A stretch of 64,000 nt of DNA from Halomicrobium urmianum (GTDB lineage: Archaea > Halobacteriota > Halobacteria > Halobacteriales > Haloarculaceae), in the NCBI RefSeq assembly GCF_020217425.1, contig NZ_CP084090.1:2356001-2420000 (forward strand). Direction: 5' to 3'. Position numbers and translations under genes: made by a program. The notes beneath the pieces were generated by a model, which searched no databases, had not been told where the DNA came from, and was given only the letters and a program-made list of their open reading frames with translations. This document shows, one piece after another, positions 35,604 to 52,806 of the stretch; positions within the stretch are counted from its first letter, which is position 1, and every line of letters starts with the position of its first letter.

Positions 35604-37226
35604 TCAGATCTCGTTGAACAGTTCGACGAGGTCGGCGTAGTCGACGTTGCCGTTGCCGTTGTAGTCGTAGTACTCGACGTTATTCTGCATCCCCTCGCTG
35701 TCCATGTTCTCGAAGTACTCGACGACGTCGGAGTAGTCGGCCTCGCCGTTGCCGTTGAGGTCCTCGTAAGCCCCGTCGCCGTCCGGGTCCGTCGCGCCAT
35801 CGGGCCAGTTCGGACCGTCGTCGGTGGGCGTGTCCTCGGTCGGCGTATCGCCGCCGTCGCCGCTTGGGATCCCGTCCTCGCGCGTCTCGACGAGCGTCTC
35901 CTTGATCAGGACGCCCATGTCGGGGTCGCCGCGCAGCTCCCACTCGCAGGGCAGGTCCTCGCAGTGGGTCGGAATCTCCCCCTCGTAGGGGTTCCCGACT
36001 GCGTCGGTCTCGCCGCTGGTCTCGAAGGCGTGCTCGAACATCGCCGGCAGCCACACCGGATCGGCGCACCACGCCGTCCAGTGCAGCGACGGCTCGGACT
36101 CAAGCCAGTCGATAAAGGGCCGTCCGAACCCCTCGGTGGTGCCCCTGATGTGCCGGTGCGGCTGGTGGTCCGAGAAGTTGTCCTGCCAGCCGAACTCGGT
36201 GACGAACAGCGGCACTTCCTCGAAGGCGCCCTCGACGCCGCTGTAGTCGTGGCCGCCCTGTTCGGCCCAGGTGTTCTCGTTGTTGGCCGCGTGGCCGGGA
36301 TAGGTGTGGTAGGCGTACGAGAGGTTCGCGCCCTCGAACTCGCCGTAGATGGTCGCCCCCTCGGGCGTCTGGCTCCAGCCCGGGGACCCGACGATGATCA
36401 GGTTCTCCGAGTGCTCACGGATCGCGTCGACCCACGGCTGGGCCATCTCGCGCCACATGTCCCACTTGTCCTGCATCCAGGGGGCGGGCTCGCCGTCCTT
36501 GTACCGCGAACTGTAGAAGCCCGGCTCGGTCGGCTCGTTGTAGATCTCGAAGAACACGTGGCTGCTATCGGCGTACCGGGGCGCGACCGTCTGCCAGAAG
36601 CTGAGCACTTCCTCCTGCAGCGGCTCGTTGATCGGGCCCTTCTGGCTCTCCGCCCACTGGACGCCCTTCCAGTGGCGGTGGTAGTCGACGATGCAGTAGA
36701 CGCCACGCTGCTCGCAGAGCTCGACGACCGGGTCCAGGTACGTTTCGAGGTACGCCTCGAGCTGGTCTTGGTCGAACGCCGGCACCGGCGGCGCCGGATC
36801 GTCCCCGTTCTCTTCCGCGATCGGCCCCGGCGGATGCTCGCCGATGTCGGTCGGCTGGACGGGCACCCGGATCACCCGCGGGTACCACCCCTCGTCGGCG
36901 CTCGTCAGGAGCCGGATCAGCTGCTCGGCGGTCTTGCCGCGCGCGGGCGCGGTCACGTTCATCCGCTTGGGGTCGGCGATGTTCAGCCCGCGTAGTTTCA
37001 CCGGCTCGCCCTGTGGGTCCGTGATCAGGTTACCATCGACGGTCAGCCGAGGGGTCGGAATCCCCGCGGCCGACGTGCCGACGACGCCGCTCCCCACGCT
37101 GACTGCGAGCGCACCGGCGCCCGCCGTCGCCTTGAGGAAGTCCCGCCGGGACGAGCCCGACGCGACTCGGCCGGTGTTCGATTCGTTCGCGCGCGCGTCC
37201 GTGGTTCTGTTCGTGTCTCTGGTCAT
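35604..37226 (-). CDS. Tat-secreted GH5 glycoside hydrolase with dockerin
   Basis: 540 residues. Twin-arginine signal at 25-55 (SSRRDFLKATAGAG), so it is exported folded. GH5 barrel at about 57-440: acid/base glutamate in FEIYNEPTE (E231) and nucleophile in LFVTEFGW (E344), plus the VDYHRHW strand. A short acid/threonine linker follows (about 451-475). The last 60 residues are a dockerin: two EF-hand-like loops, DPDGDGAYEDLNGNG and YDYNGNGNVD, each followed by a helix ending near (V/L)-x-x-(F/Y)-F. GH5 enzymes of this type cleave beta-1,4-glucans such as cellulose or related polymers. Last gene of the four-gene minus-strand cluster. It carries no cohesin module, so it is probably a cargo enzyme. 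Confidence 0.88.
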   Translation of the reverse strand: MTRDTNRTTDARANESNTGRVASGSSRRDFLKATAGAGALAVSVGSGVVGTSAAGIPTPRLTVDGNLITDPQGEPVKLRGLNIADPKRMNVTAPARGKTAEQLIRLLTSADEGWYPRVIRVPVQPTDIGEHPPGPIAEENGDDPAPPVPAFDQDQLEAYLETYLDPVVELCEQRGVYCIVDYHRHWKGVQWAESQKGPINEPLQEEVLSFWQTVAPRYADSSHVFFEIYNEPTEPGFYSSRYKDGEPAPWMQDKWDMWREMAQPWVDAIREHSENLIIVGSPGWSQTPEGATIYGEFEGANLSYAYHTYPGHAANNENTWAEQGGHDYSGVEGAFEEVPLFVTEFGWQDNFSDHQPHRHIRGTTEGFGRPFIDWLESEPSLHWTAWCADPVWLPAMFEHAFETSGETDAVGNPYEGEIPTHCEDLPCEWELRGDPDMGVLIKETLVETREDGIPSGDGGDTPTEDTPTDDGPNWPDGATDPDGDGAYEDLNGNGEADYSDVVEYFENMDSEGMQNNVEYYDYNGNGNVDYADLVELFNEI

Positions 37227-37390: not shown

Positions 37391-39925
37391 TCAGTTGACT
37401 TCGCCGAACAGCTGGACGACGTCGTCGAAGTCGATGTCGCCGTTGTCGTTGAAGTCGTAGTAGTCGACGTAGTCGGTCAGCTCCGGCTCCTCCATGTGGT
37501 TGAAGTAGATGACGATGTCGTCGTAGTCGACCTCGCCGTTGCCGTTGAGGTCCTCGTAGCTGCCGTCGCCGTCCGGGTCCGTCGGCTCGTTGCCGTTGAT
37601 GTCACCGGGACCGCCGCCCGTGCCGATCTCCAGGGTCGTGCCCGCGGTCGACACCGGGATGTCGTCGCCGGCGTTGTTGTCGATGTTCTGGACGGCGACC
37701 ACGACGTCGGTCGAACCGGAGTCGGTCTCCGCCTGGAAGGTGACCGAGCCGAGCTGGACGTCCTCGGCGCCGTCGGTGACGTTCTCCGAGAGGTCGGCAC
37801 CGGCGATAGTCACCGTGGAGCCGTCGTCGGAGTACTGGGGGTAGTCGCCCAGCGTCTGCATCGGACTGTTCTCCAGCATGGCGTTCGCGATCGTCGCGAC
37901 TGAGGTGTCTGCGACGCTGACGGCGACGCGGTAGCCCGACAGGCCCGAGGGGGCCTGCGAGAGCATGATGTTCGCCTTGGCCATGCCGCTGTCCGTGGTC
38001 GATGCCATCTCGAGGTAGACCTCGGCTTCGGGGCTGGGCGTCGTACCGCCACCGTTGCTGGTGTCCGTCGAAGCCGTGACCGTGGCCGCGCCGGACGTGT
38101 TACCACCGGTGTCGACGGCCGTGACGGAGACGTCGTAGTCCGTGCCGGAGTCGAGGCCCTCGAAGGTGGCCATCGTGTCCGAGACCTGCTTGCTGATGCC
38201 GGCGGCCTCGACGCTGTAGTAGTCGATGCCCGCGCCCGTCTCGCTGGGCTCGTCCCACGTGACCGTGATCGAGGAGTTCGTGGCGTCGTACTGCGAGAGG
38301 TTCGACGGCGCCGACGGACCGGTGGGTTCGGGCGTGGTCGTACAGTCGGAGCTGTCGGGGTCCTGGGGCAGGTCCGCGTCCGCGTGGCTCTGGACGTACT
38401 CCTGCCACCACTGGGCGTGGCCGCGGTTGTACTCGACCAGTTCGTCGAATGCCTCGCCCTGGAAGAACGGCGGGTCCCAGGTATGGTCGAAGTTCCAGGC
38501 GATCGGATGGACCGGGTACTCGTCGAAGAACGTCTGGTAGTCCTCGGCCTGGTTGGCCTTCGCGCTGGTCTCCACCCAGTCCGAGCCGCGGTCGGCGTCG
38601 CTGGGGTACTCCTCGGTGGCACCGTCGATGAACACGAAGTCGTTGTTGCCGCCACCGACGAACCAGCCCCACTCGTTGAAGAACACCGGGACTTCCTCGG
38701 CGGCCGCCCCGTAGTACTCGCTCATGGGCTGGAGGCTCTCGTGCGTGTAGCGGTGGCCCGTGTAGCACATGTTGGTGATGTCGCTATACGTGGAGCCGAC
38801 GTCCTGGACCTCGTGGTCCTTCGCCCAGTAGGTGTACTGGCTCCACCGCGGCGACCCGACCGTCTTGACGCTGCCGGGCGCGTTCTCCTCGACGACCTTG
38901 ATCCACGGCGCGACGCGCTCCAGGAACAGCTCCCAGAACGGCTCGGCGTTCTCGTGCTGGACGTCGGTGTTGAGACCGACTTCGCCGCCCTCACCGGGCT
39001 CGCGGTCAGGTGCGCCCCAGTCGCCGGCGTAGGGGCCGGTCGGCTCGTTGAAGATGTCGAAGATGACGTGGGGCATGTCGGCGTAACGGTCCGCCACCGT
39101 GCTCCAGAACATCGTCATCTCCTCGTCGAACGCCTCGGCGACGTTCGCTCCACCGTCGTTGTTGACCTCCGAGGACTGGGTCTCGAAGTAGGCGTCGTCC
39201 GGCGCACCGTCGAGACTCTGGATCTCGTCGACCTGGTCGGCACCGTGCCAGAGCACACCGCGCTCGCCGCACATGCCGTAGTCGTACTCGAAGGTCTCGT
39301 TGCCACACCGCTGCCACTCGCTGACCTCGTCCTCGTACTGGGCCTGGTGGAAGATCGGGTAGTGGCGGTGGTAGTCGAGCTGGATGTAGAAGCCGCGCTC
39401 CGCGGCCATGTCGACCAGCGGGTCCACGAACCGCTCGAGGTACGTGTCGAGCTCCTCCTGGGTGAACGCGACCGGCAGGGCCGGACCCCAGTTGTCGCCG
39501 TGGATGTGGTGGGACTCGTTGTTGCCGCTGCGGTCGGGCGCGGCGCTGATGTCCTGGGGCTGCATCGGCAGCCGGATGACCGTGTTCGGCCAGTCGGTGT
39601 TGGCCGTGGCCATCTCGATCATCTCGTCAGCCGTGGCGCCGCGCCATCCCCGGTTCGCGCGGGCGGGGTCGACGATGTTGACCCCGCGGAGGATGACCTC
39701 GTTGCCGCACTCGTCGACCAGCTTGTTACCCTCGCGCTCGAGCTTCGGCGTCGGGATGCCCTGGCCGGCCTGGGCCATCGAGTTCCCGACCATCGACGAT
39801 CCGAGCGTGAGCCCGGCCGCCGTCGCCGTCGCGCCCTTCAGGACGGTCCGGCGCGTCGTGCCCGAACCGTCGGACGCGACCTGCTTGTCGCTCTGTGCAT
39901 CCGCGTTGAAGTCGTCGTTCGTCAT
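37391..39925 (-). CDS. Tat-secreted GH5 hydrolase with FN3, cohesin-like and dockerin modules
   Basis: 844 residues from ATG 39925; this start gives the Tat signal near the N-terminus (GTTRRTVLKGATATAAG). Modules: GH5 barrel about 58-510 with acid/base E294 (FDIFNEPTG) and nucleophile E418 (VFFNEWGW); FN3 about 537-620 (APSNLSQYDATNSS); a cohesin-like module about 634-768 (GLSGYRVAVSVADTSVATI, DDIPVSTAGTTL); dockerin about 781-844 (DPDGDGSYEDLNGNG, YDFNDNGDID). One polypeptide with both a cohesin-like module and a dockerin can act as enzyme and as adaptor linking further parts, if the modules bind as in bacteria. It lies between the scaffold gene and the other GH5. Confidence 0.85.
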   Translation of the reverse strand: MTNDDFNADAQSDKQVASDGSGTTRRTVLKGATATAAGLTLGSSMVGNSMAQAGQGIPTPKLEREGNKLVDECGNEVILRGVNIVDPARANRGWRGATADEMIEMATANTDWPNTVIRLPMQPQDISAAPDRSGNNESHHIHGDNWGPALPVAFTQEELDTYLERFVDPLVDMAAERGFYIQLDYHRHYPIFHQAQYEDEVSEWQRCGNETFEYDYGMCGERGVLWHGADQVDEIQSLDGAPDDAYFETQSSEVNNDGGANVAEAFDEEMTMFWSTVADRYADMPHVIFDIFNEPTGPYAGDWGAPDREPGEGGEVGLNTDVQHENAEPFWELFLERVAPWIKVVEENAPGSVKTVGSPRWSQYTYWAKDHEVQDVGSTYSDITNMCYTGHRYTHESLQPMSEYYGAAAEEVPVFFNEWGWFVGGGNNDFVFIDGATEEYPSDADRGSDWVETSAKANQAEDYQTFFDEYPVHPIAWNFDHTWDPPFFQGEAFDELVEYNRGHAQWWQEYVQSHADADLPQDPDSSDCTTTPEPTGPSAPSNLSQYDATNSSITVTWDEPSETGAGIDYYSVEAAGISKQVSDTMATFEGLDSGTDYDVSVTAVDTGGNTSGAATVTASTDTSNGGGTTPSPEAEVYLEMASTTDSGMAKANIMLSQAPSGLSGYRVAVSVADTSVATIANAMLENSPMQTLGDYPQYSDDGSTVTIAGADLSENVTDGAEDVQLGSVTFQAETDSGSTDVVVAVQNIDNNAGDDIPVSTAGTTLEIGTGGGPGDINGNEPTDPDGDGSYEDLNGNGEVDYDDIVIYFNHMEEPELTDYVDYYDFNDNGDIDFDDVVQLFGEVN

Positions 39926-40100: not shown

Positions 40101-43100
40101 TCAGCTGCCGTTCTCGGCCATCTCTCTGAACAGCGAGACCACGTCGTCAAGGTCCAGCCGACCGTTCTCGTTGAAGTCGTAGGCGTCGCTGTTGTTCTGG
40201 ATCGCCGGGTCGTTGCGCTGGTAGTCGAACTTGATGACGTCGGTGAACTCGACCTGACCGTTGCCGTTCAGGTCCTCGTAGAGACCGTCGCCGTCGTTGT
40301 CCTGCGGCACGACGCCGTTGACGGGTTCGACGCCGCCGCTGCCGCGGTTGTCTTCGCCGACGCTCAGCGTCGCCCGACCGGCCCCGATGTCCATCGCGCC
40401 GCCGTCGTCGTCGTCCATCGCCTCGACGGAGGCGTCGACGATCGTCTCGCCCGTCGCGTGCGTCGCCAGCGTCACCGTCCCCAGCCGCACGTCGGTGGCG
40501 CCGTCCTGGACGGATTCGCTGAGGTCGGCGCCCGAGATGGTCGCCGACGAACCGTCCGAGGACACGCTCGTCGAGTCGCCGGGCGAGGTGAACCCGGAGC
40601 CGGAGGCGACCGATTCGATGGTCGCGACGCCGGTGTCGGAGACCGCGATCGACAGCTCGAACCCGGAGACGCCGTCGGGTGCCTCGTCGAGCGTGATGGC
40701 GGCCTCGGCGGTGCCGTCCGGAGCGACCGACTCCATCGAGAAGTCGACGCCGATCGGGTAGTCGCCACCGGGGCCAGATCCGACCGACAGCGTCGCACTC
40801 TCGGTCGAGGCCGAGACGGCCTGCCCGTTGTCGTCGTCCATCTCATCGACCGACACGGAGACCTCGACGTCGCCCTGTCCCTGGGCGTCCAGGGTGAGCG
40901 CGCCGAGCGTCACGTCGCTGGCGCCGGCCTCGACGCTCTCGCTGAGGTCAGCCGCCGACAGCGTCGCCGACGAACCGTCGTCGGTCACGCTCGTCGAGTC
41001 GCCGGGCGAGGTGAACCCGGACCCGGTGGCGATCTCCTCGATGGTCGCGACGCCGGTGTCGGAGACCGCGACCGACAGGTCGTACCCGGAGACGCCGTCG
41101 GGCGCCTCCGCCAGCGTGAGGGCGGCCTCCGTCGAGCCGTCCGAGGGGATCGACTGGCTGGACAGGTCGACCGAGACGGTCGGCCCGTCGCCGCCGGTGC
41201 CCGGTCTGACCGACAGCATCGCGCTCTCGGTCGAGACCGAGACGTCGTTACCCTCGTCGTCGTCCAGGCGATCGACGTCGACGGAAACGTCGGCGCTGCC
41301 CTCGGCCTCACCGGCCAGCGTGACCGTCGCCAGCGCCACGTCCGAGGCGCCGCCCTGAACGGCCTCGCTGAGGTCGGCGGCCTCGACGGTCGCCGACGAG
41401 CCGTCGTCCGAGACGGTCGCCGAGTCGCCCACCGTCGAGAACTCCGTGCCCTCGACGCCGATCGAGTCGATGGTCGCGACCGACGTGTCAGAGACCGCCA
41501 CCGACAGGTCGTACCCGGAGACGCCGTCGGGCGCCGAGTCGAGGACGGCCACGGCCTGAGTCGATCCGTCGGCCGCGATCGACGAGTCCTCCAGTTCGAC
41601 GGCCACGGTCGAGCCCGCGGGCGGTTCGCCGGAGCCGACCGTCAGCGTGGCGCCTTCGGTGTCGACCGAGATGTCGTTGCCGTCGTCGTCGTCGTCGAGG
41701 CGGTCGACGTCGACCGAGACGTCGACGGAGACCTCGACCTCGCCCGGATTCTCGCCGGACAGCGAGAGCGTCGTCAGGGTGACGTCCGAGGCCCCCTCCC
41801 CGATGGCCTCGCTGAGGTCGGCGGCCTCGACGGTCGCAGTCGAGCCGTCGTCGGAGACGGTCGCAGTCGAGCCGTCGTCGGAGACGGTCGCCGACTCGCC
41901 CACCGTCGAGAACTCCGTGTCCTCGACGCTGACCGAGTCGGTCGTGGCGACGTCGGTGTCCGAGACCGCAACCGAGAGGTCGAACCCGAAGACGCCGTTG
42001 GGCGCTTCTGACAGTACGACGTCGGCGGCGGTGGATCCGTCGGCCTCGATCGACGAGTCGTCCAGTTCGATCGACACCGTCTGGTCGGCGGTCGGCGTCT
42101 CGCCGGGTTCGACGGTCAGCGACGACCCCTGCGTGGAGACGGGGATGTCGTTGCCGTCGTTGTCGTCGAGGCGGTCGACGTTCACGGAGACGTCGACGGA
42201 GACCTCGGCTTCGCCCGGGTTCTCGCCGGACAGCGTGACCGTCGCCAGCGCCACGTCCGAGGTGCCGTCGGGGACGGACTCGCTGAGGTCGGCGGCCTCG
42301 ACGGTCGCCGACGAGCCGTCAGAGGACACGCTCGACGACTCGCCGACCGTCGAGAACTCCGTGCCCTCGACGCTGACCGACTCGATGGTCGCAACCGACG
42401 TGTCCGAGACCTCGACCGAGAGGTCGAATCCGGAGACGCCACCCGGGGCCTCGCCGAGCACGACGTCGGCCTCGGTCGATCCGCCGGACGCGATGGAGTC
42501 GTCGGACAGCTCGACCGACACCGTCTGGTCGCCGGGCTCCGGGGTCGGCTCCGTGGTCGTCTCCGTCGGCTCCGTGGTCGTCTCCGTCGGCGGGGGCGTC
42601 GAGGTCGAACCCGACGCGAACCGGATCGTGTCGATCTCGATCGCACCGGAGTTCTGCTGCCAGAAGTTGAGCCGGACGGCACTGACAGATCCGCTCACTC
42701 CGAGGTCGTCGAGATCGACCGCGACCGTCGAGAACTCCGTCCCGATCGAGTCGTCGGTCAGGTCGGCCAGCAGCGTCTGGGTGCCGCCGACGTTGAGTGT
42801 GAAGTGGCTCTCCTCGCCGCCCGAGTCGCCGCGGACGACGAATTCGAGCCGCGAGTAGTCGCCGACGTCCTGGTTGACGTTGGTGCCGAACCAGCCGGCG
42901 TTGTCGTACTCGAGTCGCAGTACGCCGTCACTGACCTCGCCGGTTCCGCCACCGTTGGCGAACGATCCGGCCCCCGTCCAGTTCTCGAGGTCGTTCTGGT
43001 CGGGATACGACGGATCTCCCTCGAAGTCGTTGACGACGAGCGTACTCTCCTGTGCGGTGGCCGCTCCGACGGCGCCGGTTGCGACGGCACCGGCGCCCGC

Positions 43101-43399: not shown

Positions 43400-43999
43400 T
43401 CAGCGGACGATCTGCAGGAAGCCGTATCCGGCGAGCAGCAAGAGACCGAACACGACGACCGAGATAGCGGTCGTCATCGCGGTCTGCTGCAGCGAGCTCG
43501 CGGGGCCCACGCTGACGGTCCCGGTCTCGACGCCGGGCTCGATCTGCTCCCCCTCGTCACTGGGGAAAGAGCCCGTGGTGAGGCCGATCTCGATCTCACC
43601 GCGGCTCTGGCCCCTGACGGTCACGGACGCGAGCTGGACCTCGTCGGCGCCGGCCTCGAACGCGTCGTTGAGGTCGACGGCGGCGAACGTGGCGCTGCGT
43701 CCGCCGTCGGTCACGTTGGTCCCCGAGAGTTGCAACCGCTCGTCGACGCTGGCGCCCGTTATCGTCGCGGCCTCCCCCTCGACAGTCAGGCCGAACTCGA
43801 AGCCGGCGAGCCCGTTCGGCAGCGACGAGAAGTTCACCGCGACCGCCGACTTCTCGCCGGTCCCGACCTGCCCGTCCTCGATCACCAGCGTCGGTCCGTC
43901 GGCCGTCTGTGCCCCCACACCCTGAACTGCGCAGACACCGAGCGACGCGACGACGAGCGTCGCCACCGCTACGGTGCTGACGCGCACTGTGTCCCCCAT
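43400..43999 (-). CDS. Membrane-anchored single cohesin-like protein (anchoring scaffoldin candidate)
   Basis: 199 residues from ATG 43999, chosen because it gives a signal peptide (VRVSTVAVATLVVASLGV) ending near GVGAQ at residue 30. Residues about 36-165 form a cohesin-like module similar in layout to the scaffold repeats (LVIEDGQVGTGEKSAVAVNF, NGLAGFEFGLTVEGEAATI). A single C-terminal membrane helix follows (about 174-196; VVVFGLLLLAGYGFLQIV). The module would face outward while the helix holds it in the membrane. It is the first gene of the minus-strand cluster and is the natural surface anchor for the dockerin of the scaffold or enzymes. Confidence 0.75.
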   Translation of the reverse strand: MGDTVRVSTVAVATLVVASLGVCAVQGVGAQTADGPTLVIEDGQVGTGEKSAVAVNFSSLPNGLAGFEFGLTVEGEAATITGASVDERLQLSGTNVTDGGRSATFAAVDLNDAFEAGADEVQLASVTVRGQSRGEIEIGLTTGSFPSDEGEQIEPGVETGTVSVGPASSLQQTAMTTAISVVVFGLLLLAGYGFLQIVR

Positions 44000-44120
44000 T
44001 GATATCCCGAATGCAATGGGTAATAATAAACCTTCACGCCGATCGTTGTGGCTAGTTTCGGACGCAACCAAAGATTGAGTATGCTCAAGCAATAATACAG
44101 CCGCCAGTGGTGGGGTAGCA

Positions 44121-50604: not shown

Positions 50605-50876
50605 GTGAGCGCCGGCGGGAGAACCGGGGAGATATCGCCCTCCGTCCCGTTCATCGATCCCCGCGACGGTACCGTCGACCTGGTTCAGGTCATCGAAGAG
50701 GCGCTCCCGCTCGCCAAGCTGATCGGGCTGTTCGCGCTCGTCGCGTTCGTCCCGTTCGCGATCGGTTTCCTGCTGGCCCCCTCCGGGCTGGCCCTCCCGT
50801 TTACCGTCCTCGGCCAGTTCGTCGTCGCCGTGGGGGCCGGCGTCGTGCTGATCTACCAGGCGGAGCAGGCCGAGTG
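50605..50876 (+). pseudogene. Small two-helix membrane protein, interrupted near its end by an IS
   Basis: From GTG 50605 the frame encodes two hydrophobic helices (about residues 34-56 and 60-82: LIGLFALVAFVPFAIGFLL, VLGQFVVAVGAGVVLIY). The natural C-terminus is broken at 50876 by the left end of the IS200/IS605 element; the frame ends within it at 50889. Sequence after the element (GTTCACTGCGTCGCTCGCGG, reading VHCVARG-x-T-I-V-E-E then TGA at 52881) would restore a plausible end. Only a few residues are lost or changed, so partial function is possible. Family unknown. Confidence 0.55.
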
Positions 50877-51293
50877 CCTCGGGGCTTGACCCCGAGGGTG
50901 AAGGCCGTAAGCCCCGTTAAACTGCTCAATCGTGTCGGTCGAAACATCGCCTGCCGTCCCAACGTAGTACGATTCCTCCCAAAATCCGCCACCCCACAGA
51001 TACTCCTCCAAGAACGGTTCGTGCTGTTCCCACATCTCCCGCGCCGTGATGCTCTTGACCGTTCGCACGATCTCGCTCGGTGCGTGCTTCGGGTGGGCTG
51101 ACAGGAACAGGTGTACGTGGTCGGGTGAGATGTGGAGCGACAGTATCTCGTAGCCGTACTCGTTGCACACGTCGCGGAAACTCGCTTCCAGAGAATCCTC
51201 GATTGGTTCGAGTATCGCGTGGCGGTACTTCGGACACCACACGAAGTGGTAGTTGACGTTGTATACCGTGTGGTTCGACCGCTTCTCGCCCAT
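50853..51293 (-). CDS. tnpA: IS200/IS605 TnpA (HUH Y1 transposase)
   Basis: 146 residues from ATG 51293; the conserved part begins MGEKRSNHTVYNVNYHFVW. HUH metal motif is SPDHVHLFLS and the catalytic tyrosine lies in EESYYVGTAG. TnpA excises and integrates the single-stranded element. The frame runs through the left-end hairpin and takes its stop codon from flanking host DNA (last residues RHSACSAW). Typical size is about 130 residues, so about 15 residues are chimeric. Divergent from the ribbon-helix-helix/tnpB unit. Confidence 0.9.
   Translation of the reverse strand: MGEKRSNHTVYNVNYHFVWCPKYRHAILEPIEDSLEASFRDVCNEYGYEILSLHISPDHVHLFLSAHPKHAPSEIVRTVKSITAREMWEQHEPFLEEYLWGGGFWEESYYVGTAGDVSTDTIEQFNGAYGLHPRGQAPRHSACSAW
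50877..50897. repeat. Left-end hairpin of IS200/IS605 element
   Basis: Perfect 8-bp stem, loop CTTGA. It is identical to the right-end copy and is the likely TnpA recognition structure. Confidence 0.85.
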
Positions 51294-51356
51294 ACCTACC
51301 AATACAACTACAATCAGAAGTATTCTTTGAGGTGACTCACAAACTACCACCAGTAA

Positions 51357-51388: not shown

Positions 51389-51532
51389 GTGACGAAGCAA
51401 CTCAAGGTATCCGACGCCGTGTACGACGACCTTGACGAACTCAAGGACGAGGAGGGCCACACGAGTTTCGACAGCGTACTCCGCACGCTCCTCCTCCACT
51501 ACCGTCACATCCAACCCAACGACCAAGAATGA
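51389..51532 (+). CDS. Ribbon-helix-helix (DUF7557-like) small protein
   Basis: 47 residues from GTG 51389 (another in-frame GTG at 51368 would add seven residues but lies within the palindrome). The strand-helix-helix outline is clear: TKQLKVSDAVYDDLDELK, then SFDSVLRTLLLHYR. Its stop overlaps the tnpB start by 4 nt (ATGA), so it is translated just before TnpB. Such genes accompany many haloarchaeal tnpB genes. A role in repressing the transposition genes is inferred. Confidence 0.75.
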   Translation: MTKQLKVSDAVYDDLDELKDEEGHTSFDSVLRTLLLHYRHIQPNDQE

Positions 51533-52806
51533 CCGACGCACAGGCTCTCGTCAAGACGCTGGACTTCCAACTCGACATCCAGAGTAACAACGAGAGCCTG
51601 CTGTACGACGCCACCCTCGAAGCACGGTCGGCGTACAACGAAACCATCCGCCTCGCCAAGCAGGGCGTTGATTGGGACGCGATTCCCGACCACGTGGCCG
51701 ACGACGCCAACCTCGTGAAAAACACGACACAGCGCGTCGTTGCCAAAGCACTCGGAGCGATGGAGAATTACTACGAGTACGACGACTTCGACCAACCGAA
51801 CCACACCAAGGACGGCGCGTACCCGCTCCGAGCAAACTACGAGGAAGGGTACAACCTGTCGCTCACCGATGACGGTGACGTGGTGTTCCGCATCAGCGCG
51901 AAGCCGTACAACCACGTCACGGGCGTTCTCGAAGGCGACGACGCCCACCTCGATATTCTCAAGACCGCTCTCACGAGTGACGAGTGGAAGATAGGGACGG
52001 GGGAAGCCCTGTTCCACAACGACAACCCCGAGTTACACGTCAATGTCACCAACACCGAACAGACTGTTCGAGACAAGCAGGACTCACGAACGGTCGTCGG
52101 CGTGGACGTGAACGAGGAGAATGTGGCTCTCACCGCACTCTCCGAAGAGGGCGTCGAGGACACGTTGGTCATCGACTTCCCCGAAATCAAGTTCGAGCGC
52201 CACCGCTATTTCACGATGCGAAAGCGCGTCCAGAACGCGGGGAAAGAGAGCATCCATGACACGTTGGAAGGGCGTGAGGAACGGGTCGTCCGCGACCGAC
52301 TCCACAAGGTGTCTCGGCATATCGTGGAGTGGAGCCGTCAGTTCGAGACGCCGTGCATCGTCTTTGAAGACCTCAAAGAGATGCGCGACAGCATCGACTA
52401 CGGCACGCGGATGAACCGACGCTTGCACCACCTCCCGTTCCGCGCCCTCCAATACTACACGTCGTACAAGGCGTCGTTCAGGTGCATCCCGACTGGTTGG
52501 ATTGACCCGTACAAGACGAGTCAACGGTGTCCGATGTGCGGGCACGCCGAGCGAGCGAACCGCAACAAGAAGCGGTTCACATGTCGGTCGTGCGGGCATC
52601 AAGACCACAGCGACCGTGGTGCAAGCGTCAACATCGCCGTGAAAGGTATCAAGAAGTATCAGGACTGGAATGTGCCTGCTCTCAACAGCCTTCCCCAAGT
52701 GCGGAAGGTGCGACGGCAGGCATCGGGGGCCGTGGACGCCCCGACCGTGACCCACGACGCCGTTCGAGGCTATCAGACCGATGGTATCGTGGGAGTGTCC
52801 GATTAA
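51529..52806 (+). CDS. tnpB: TnpB RNA-guided nuclease
   Basis: 425 residues. RuvC residues are all visible: D in VVGVDVNEENVALTA, E in CIVFEDLKEMRD, D in QDHSDRGASVNIA. The zinc finger has CPMCGH and CRSCGH. Full-length for the family. TnpB proteins cut DNA guided by an RNA from the right end of the element, which favours retention of the element after excision. Start overlaps the RHH gene. The relic at 24100-24486 is a distinct relative. Confidence 0.93.
   Translation: MTDAQALVKTLDFQLDIQSNNESLLYDATLEARSAYNETIRLAKQGVDWDAIPDHVADDANLVKNTTQRVVAKALGAMENYYEYDDFDQPNHTKDGAYPLRANYEEGYNLSLTDDGDVVFRISAKPYNHVTGVLEGDDAHLDILKTALTSDEWKIGTGEALFHNDNPELHVNVTNTEQTVRDKQDSRTVVGVDVNEENVALTALSEEGVEDTLVIDFPEIKFERHRYFTMRKRVQNAGKESIHDTLEGREERVVRDRLHKVSRHIVEWSRQFETPCIVFEDLKEMRDSIDYGTRMNRRLHHLPFRALQYYTSYKASFRCIPTGWIDPYKTSQRCPMCGHAERANRNKKRFTCRSCGHQDHSDRGASVNIAVKGIKKYQDWNVPALNSLPQVRKVRRQASGAVDAPTVTHDAVRGYQTDGIVGVSD

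Follow-up and report, generated by a model that had tools for sequence, protein, structure and literature searches.

Whether a haloarchaeon might hold a cellulosome-like complex at its surface, and through which cohesin-dockerin contact, is the question raised by a small gene, P0001, in the 64,000-nucleotide stretch of the Halomicrobium urmianum genome analysed here (hereafter the window). The initial annotation described a 199-residue protein with a signal peptide, one cohesin module and a C-terminal membrane helix, in the layout of bacterial anchoring scaffoldins. This description was borne out, as an intact reading frame lies exactly at 43400-43999 on the minus strand, the cohesin fold is recovered by AlphaFold2 (AF2) modelling and Foldseek, and the layout is backed by that fold, by the neighbouring genes and by its reappearance among other cellulolytic haloarchaea. 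Bacterial non-SLH anchoring scaffoldins, defined by at least one cohesin and a C-terminal transmembrane (TM) helix, are a known category (PMC11557425), and both elements are found in P0001 by sequence and model.

The signal peptide (residues 1-31; 43907..43999, minus strand) is of the Sec type as read from the sequence, has low pLDDT in the AF2 model and shows by eye neither a twin arginine nor a lipobox; its hydrophobic N-terminus closes with ...VQGVGAQ, and the cleavage site was placed by reading the sequence rather than with a prediction program. The cohesin module spans about residues 35-165 (43508..43897, minus strand), as delimited by identities, profiles, the AF2 model and Foldseek. It is followed, after a linker of about 8 residues that is the shortest among 31 anchors, by a TM helix with its core at residues 177-195 (43415..43471, minus strand; sequence and AF2 model), within a modelled helix at residues 169-198. 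Lipoprotein anchoring was rejected because a lipobox was not seen by eye. Anchoring through PGF-CTERM and archaeosortase, which is recognised by a PGF motif, a helix and a basic tail, was likewise rejected, since the PGF motif is absent from the C-terminus of P0001; the archaeosortase ArtA is encoded in the same genome (TIGR04125, E 2e-108).

Pfam and NCBIfam recognised no cohesin in P0001, which does not reach the cut-off of PF00963; its paralogue L046 passes (E 5e-7). The missing match is a limit of the sequence model, which also misses the repeats of multi-cohesin scaffoldins. Sequence searches of the PDB, run with P0001 and a cohesin profile, gave chance matches only, and the fold was identified by structure comparison alone. 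The AF2 model, built on an alignment that combines the window modules with related ones, has pLDDT values mostly of 91-96 across the module, which is all-beta and forms the beta-sandwich expected of a cohesin. Against the PDB, Foldseek matched the model to 5nrm_A with E 6.3e-10 and a TM-score of 0.79 by target, and nearly all top matches were cohesins, with the archaeal cohesin 2xdh at rank 6. The P0001 module is also picked up by profiles of the window modules, although it was itself one of their seeds, and an independent search with P0001 recovers the scaffold modules (E 3e-12 to 9e-5). A chance resemblance was rejected, as both fold and adjacency argue otherwise. Assignment to the type II cohesins, the anchor class of Clostridium thermocellum, marked by an alpha helix between strands and by beta-flaps, was rejected too, because the modelled module contains no internal helix and its best matches are mostly type I.

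P0001 heads a set of genes on the minus strand, followed by the scaffoldin P0002 and by P0003 and P0004. The 1032-residue P0002 (40101..43199) comprises a TAT signal, a CBM-like module (42600..43052; AF2 pLDDT 84, best Foldseek matches CBM30, CBM8 and CBM29), five cohesins (40356..42527) and a C-terminal dockerin (40119..40307) that diverges from the enzyme dockerins of the genome. P0003 (37391..39925, with the ATG assumed at 39925) is a TAT-GH5-fn3-cohesin-dockerin enzyme with a scaffold-type cohesin (37619..38032) and a dockerin (37397..37585), and P0004 (35604..37226) is a TAT-GH5-dockerin cellulase (dockerin at 35607..35795); both enzyme dockerins were identified by Pfam and dockerin comparison. 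With five cohesins and a CBM-fold module, P0002 has the make-up by which a cellulosomal scaffoldin is recognised, and the genome also holds several dockerin-bearing plant-polysaccharide hydrolases (GH5, GH10) among the carriers of its 17 dockerin matches above threshold. The early inventory of five scaffold repeats and three dockerins stood for the repeats and fell short for the dockerins, of which the genome holds at least 17, and it lacked the sixth scaffold-type cohesin on P0003. Since a cohesin and a dockerin are combined in the GH5 protein P0003, it could link enzymes into head-to-tail chains or be a catalytic adaptor.

The anchor gene lies upstream of the scaffoldin gene with a gap of 200 nt, and the two seem to be transcribed from separate promoters. 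A TATA-like TTTATTATTA, found by eye at 44021..44030 (minus strand), 22-31 nt upstream of the P0001 ATG, fits a leaderless anchor transcript with its own promoter. Farther along the window, TnpA-like and TnpB-like frames (50853-51350, minus strand, and 51529-52806, plus strand) resemble by eye an IS200/IS605-type element. Elsewhere in the genome, L046 is a second single-cohesin protein, with a PGF-CTERM and 39% identity to the anchor. A second GH5-fn3-cohesin-dockerin gene (L013:1279-3139; G000:C1 near 919-921 kb) is broken across two reading frames, by a frameshift or an assembly error, and a divergent pair (L048:10052-14142) sets a protein with a weak single cohesin, a long Thr/Ser/Pro linker and a TM helix against a dockerin protein with TSP3-like repeats.

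Single-cohesin membrane proteins proved to be common in haloarchaea, and their gene usually lies just downstream of one for a secreted phosphatase. Cohesins occur in 62 and dockerins in 66 of 145 Halobacteria genomes, with both in 59 (Fisher 1e-28, kinship ignored), and a same-strand dockerin lies within 2.5 kb of 42 of the 47 short single-cohesin frames, the positions having been taken by hand from tables and, for a few, from loci. The usual unit consists of a PhoX phosphatase with a cohesin-dockerin tail, followed by a gene encoding a signal peptide, a cohesin, a linker and a TM helix or PGF-CTERM. This two-gene unit recurs at L035-L037, L039, L053-L071 and other loci; in the named example, Salarchaeum sp. 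JOR-1, its genes are annotated 'alkaline phosphatase PhoX' and 'hypothetical protein'. The same tail is also found on PhoD-like (L042, L044) and 5'-nucleotidase-like (L038) proteins, and has the look of a cassette for enzyme display in general, with no tie to cellulose. The cohesin-to-membrane linker measures 8-19 residues in four cellulase-cluster anchors and 27-49, with one of 94, in PhoX-unit anchors (Mann-Whitney p 0.0002), a contrast that was noticed post hoc and ignores kinship.

It had been proposed that the anchor module is more distant from the scaffold repeats than these are from each other, and that its partner accordingly differs from theirs. The first point is confirmed by identities of 25-28% to the five repeats versus 44-72% among them; to all other cohesins of the cluster the anchor module is 24-28% identical. 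In a tree of 66 cohesin rows, the deep forks of which are weakly supported, the window anchor groups with single-cohesin anchors, and the AU test rejects a clade of the anchor with its own scaffold cohesins (p 0.0009; p 0.011 with an earlier set). At the class-distinguishing columns, chosen as those that separate PhoX-unit anchors from the window scaffold cohesins, the anchor is anchor-like at 11, scaffold-like at 1 and neither at 8. Judged by these sequences, the anchor and scaffold cohesins have separate ancestry, and a recent duplication of the anchor module from the neighbouring scaffold repeats was rejected on the AU test. The proposal of a different partner is supported by the same two AU values and by the 11:1 ratio of class-specific residues.

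Cellulase clusters in other genomes, located with the cellulase P0004 as query, allow a comparison of arrangements. Natronoglomus mannanivorans encodes a GH5 scaffoldin with eight cohesins (L113:14229-20684), Halovivax sp. KZCA124 one with ten (L118:9923-17279) and Natronobiforma cellulositropha one with at least five (L116:6766-13444), and a single-cohesin TM or PGF-CTERM gene adjoins each of these scaffoldins or sits one gene away. Counting L082 as well, four other genomes show a scaffoldin paired with a single-cohesin membrane protein. No dockerin was detected on the scaffoldins of Natronoglomus, Halovivax and Natronobiforma; that of Natronobiforma runs off its contig, and neither piece shows one. 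In Natronoglomus, Halovivax and G145, all with dockerin-less scaffoldins, the anchors share 53-58% identity with scaffold cohesins of their own kind and group with these; those of Natronoglomus and Halovivax have about 57% identity to the Natronoglomus scaffold repeats and, judging from this resemblance and from the missing dockerin, more likely take enzymes. The Natronobiforma anchor belongs to the other cohesin group despite its scaffoldin showing no dockerin. A rule that an anchor is unlike its own scaffold cohesins only if the scaffoldin has a dockerin holds in the window, Natronoglomus, Halovivax and G145 and fails in Natronobiforma, and because of this exception we do not use it as proof.

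For the window, the dockerins themselves bear on which of them the anchor might hold. As originally noted, the scaffold dockerin departs from the enzyme dockerins past the first loop, where it reads DVIKFDYQRND and they mostly read DVVxYFxxM, and its second half differs too. Against the other dockerins of the genome it reaches 47% identity, while they average 63% among themselves. Its second half is 66% identical to PhoX-unit dockerins versus 49% to those of its own genome, the largest shift of this kind among 15, and the first half shows no PhoX likeness (42% versus 46%). The scaffoldin of genome G008 (CBM, three cohesins, dockerin) also has an atypical dockerin; it shares E9 of hand 1 and L10 of hand 2 with the P0002 dockerin, and its second hand lacks PhoX likeness (39%). 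The suggestion that the scaffold dockerin is the partner of the anchor is favoured indirectly, by the outlying position of this dockerin in the genome and by the resemblance of its second half to dockerins of PhoX proteins that stand beside anchors of the same group; it is weakened by the first half, by the scaffoldins beside anchors in three species on which no dockerin was detected, and by OlpA and OlpC of C. thermocellum, which have a similar layout and take enzyme dockerins. On these sequence features, we lean slightly towards the scaffold dockerin as the main partner of the anchor. The scaffold dockerin could instead be bound by L046, the paralogue of the anchor, or by a cohesin on P0003 or L047.

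Here we propose that P0001 may act as a cell-surface cohesin receptor, which would be exported via its signal peptide, held in the cytoplasmic membrane by its single C-terminal helix and display one type-I-like cohesin on the outer face of the membrane. This cohesin would most likely take, in a calcium-dependent manner, the atypical C-terminal dockerin of the neighbouring scaffoldin with its CBM and five cohesins, while the cohesins of the scaffoldin, which are of a different kind, would collect GH5, GH10 and other hydrolases equipped with dockerins; a haloarchaeon might in this way hold a two-tier cellulosome-like complex tethered to its membrane. We infer this arrangement as a whole with a probability of roughly 0.6, and we are considerably more confident that the anchor fastens some dockerin-bearing component of the cellulase system. 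Against the two-tier arrangement, the 8-residue linker would place the cohesin under the S-layer, and the separate promoters that the anchor and scaffold genes seem to have, together with the 200-nt gap, also count against it. We conjecture that the linker might keep the cohesin near the membrane and that the long acidic scaffoldin then crosses the S-layer.

A different division of labour, in which enzyme dockerins dock on the anchor itself, so that single cellulases are tethered to the membrane while the scaffoldin is held otherwise or released, would recall OlpA and OlpC of C. thermocellum, which are attached through SLH modules and take enzyme dockerins. The OlpC cohesin (4dh2) is among the best structural matches of P0001 and OlpA (3ul4) is in the list, both complexed with dockerins; the anchors of Natronoglomus and Halovivax adjoin dockerin-less scaffoldins and resemble their own scaffold cohesins, and the P0003 dockerin is partly PhoX-like in hand 2 (62% versus 56%). 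The window anchor cohesin, however, is not of the scaffold type expected to hold enzyme dockerins (AU p 0.0009), and a scaffold dockerin so unlike the enzyme dockerins would be unexpected if one partner were common to all. We regard direct enzyme binding as the main rival, though a fairly unlikely one here.

Distinctly improbable, in our view, is that P0001 is a stray copy of a PhoX-unit anchor with its true partner dockerin elsewhere in the genome and an incidental place beside the cellulases. Its nearest relatives are indeed PhoX-unit anchors and L046, no ortholog was found among 146 family genomes or is known beside another cellulase cluster, and a related-locus search with P0001 in named genomes returned nothing. 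Yet no PhoX-type dockerin protein was recognised among those dockerins of the genome that were read (catalytic parts being identified for some), the anchor stands 200 nt upstream of a dockerin-bearing scaffoldin on the same strand, and the pairing recurs in four other genomes. That the module keeps the cohesin fold and binds no dockerin, P0001 being a general surface or adhesion protein, is hardly credible: it is the most divergent module of the set, but its class-conserved positions are kept, its reading frame is unbroken, and across the class cohesin genes occur together with, and next to, dockerin genes.

Among known systems, the bacterial non-SLH anchoring scaffoldins resemble P0001 in their domain make-up and in standing beside a scaffoldin and dockerin-bearing enzymes, whereas P0001 is archaeal, has a Sec signal peptide, faces no peptidoglycan, has a linker of about 8 residues and lies beyond PF00963. 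OlpA and OlpC likewise present a single type-I-fold cohesin on a surface protein, and their structures match the model; in P0001, however, the cohesin does not belong to the class of the scaffold cohesins. In archaea, AF2375 and AF2376 of Archaeoglobus fulgidus were reportedly described by Bayer et al. in 1999 as non-cellulosomal cohesin and dockerin proteins. They provide an archaeal cohesin fold (2xdh), and as adjacent cohesin and dockerin genes they resemble the haloarchaeal PhoX unit; A. fulgidus is not known to have a multi-cohesin scaffoldin or cellulases (PMC9012536). ANME archaea encode scaffoldin-like proteins with up to 5 cohesins and a dockerin, as does the window, but their usual dockerin proteins are ABC-transporter binding proteins, and no cellulase cluster that includes a TM anchor with one cohesin is described for them (PMC9012536).

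The Natronoglomus pair differs from the window in that the scaffoldin has no dockerin and the anchor, a TAT/PGF-CTERM protein, is similar to the cohesins of its own scaffoldin. From likely start codons, the two L113 frames encode 1755 aa (GH5, eight cohesins, CBM) and 258 aa (TAT, cohesin, PGF-CTERM), sizes equal to those listed in Table 1 of PMC10963439 for MCU4972718, named 'GH5/CBM6 endoglucanase', and MCU4972719, named 'S-layer glycoprotein, 2 TMH'. That study takes the dockerin as a substrate-binding module and reports an extra external layer on mannan-grown N. mannanivorans cells, which, we speculate, might be the complex itself. A haloarchaeal comparative study mentions neither cohesin nor dockerin (PMC10267330), probably because Pfam is blind to such modules, as it missed all eight cohesins of the Natronoglomus scaffoldin. 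Cellulosomes have been described for anaerobic bacteria and fungi (PMC12484212), and our search of the open-access literature, with subscription papers outside its reach, found no report of a cellulase-linked, membrane-anchored cohesin system in haloarchaea.

The single-cohesin anchor and the PhoX-cohesin-dockerin unit together suggest a general haloarchaeal way to keep secreted enzymes at the cell. It is conceivable, although we would sooner bet against it, that aerobic haloarchaea independently built two-tier, cell-anchored cellulosomes from an older surface-display system, in which secreted phosphatases with a cohesin-dockerin tail docked on a single-cohesin membrane protein, and that the window anchor kept the old specificity, which the scaffold dockerin follows. 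If the two-tier arrangement is true, a membrane-anchored cellulosome in salt-saturated archaea would extend the cellulosome principle to a third domain, change the reading of haloarchaeal cellulose use and offer a source of cohesin-dockerin pairs adapted to 3-4 M salt.
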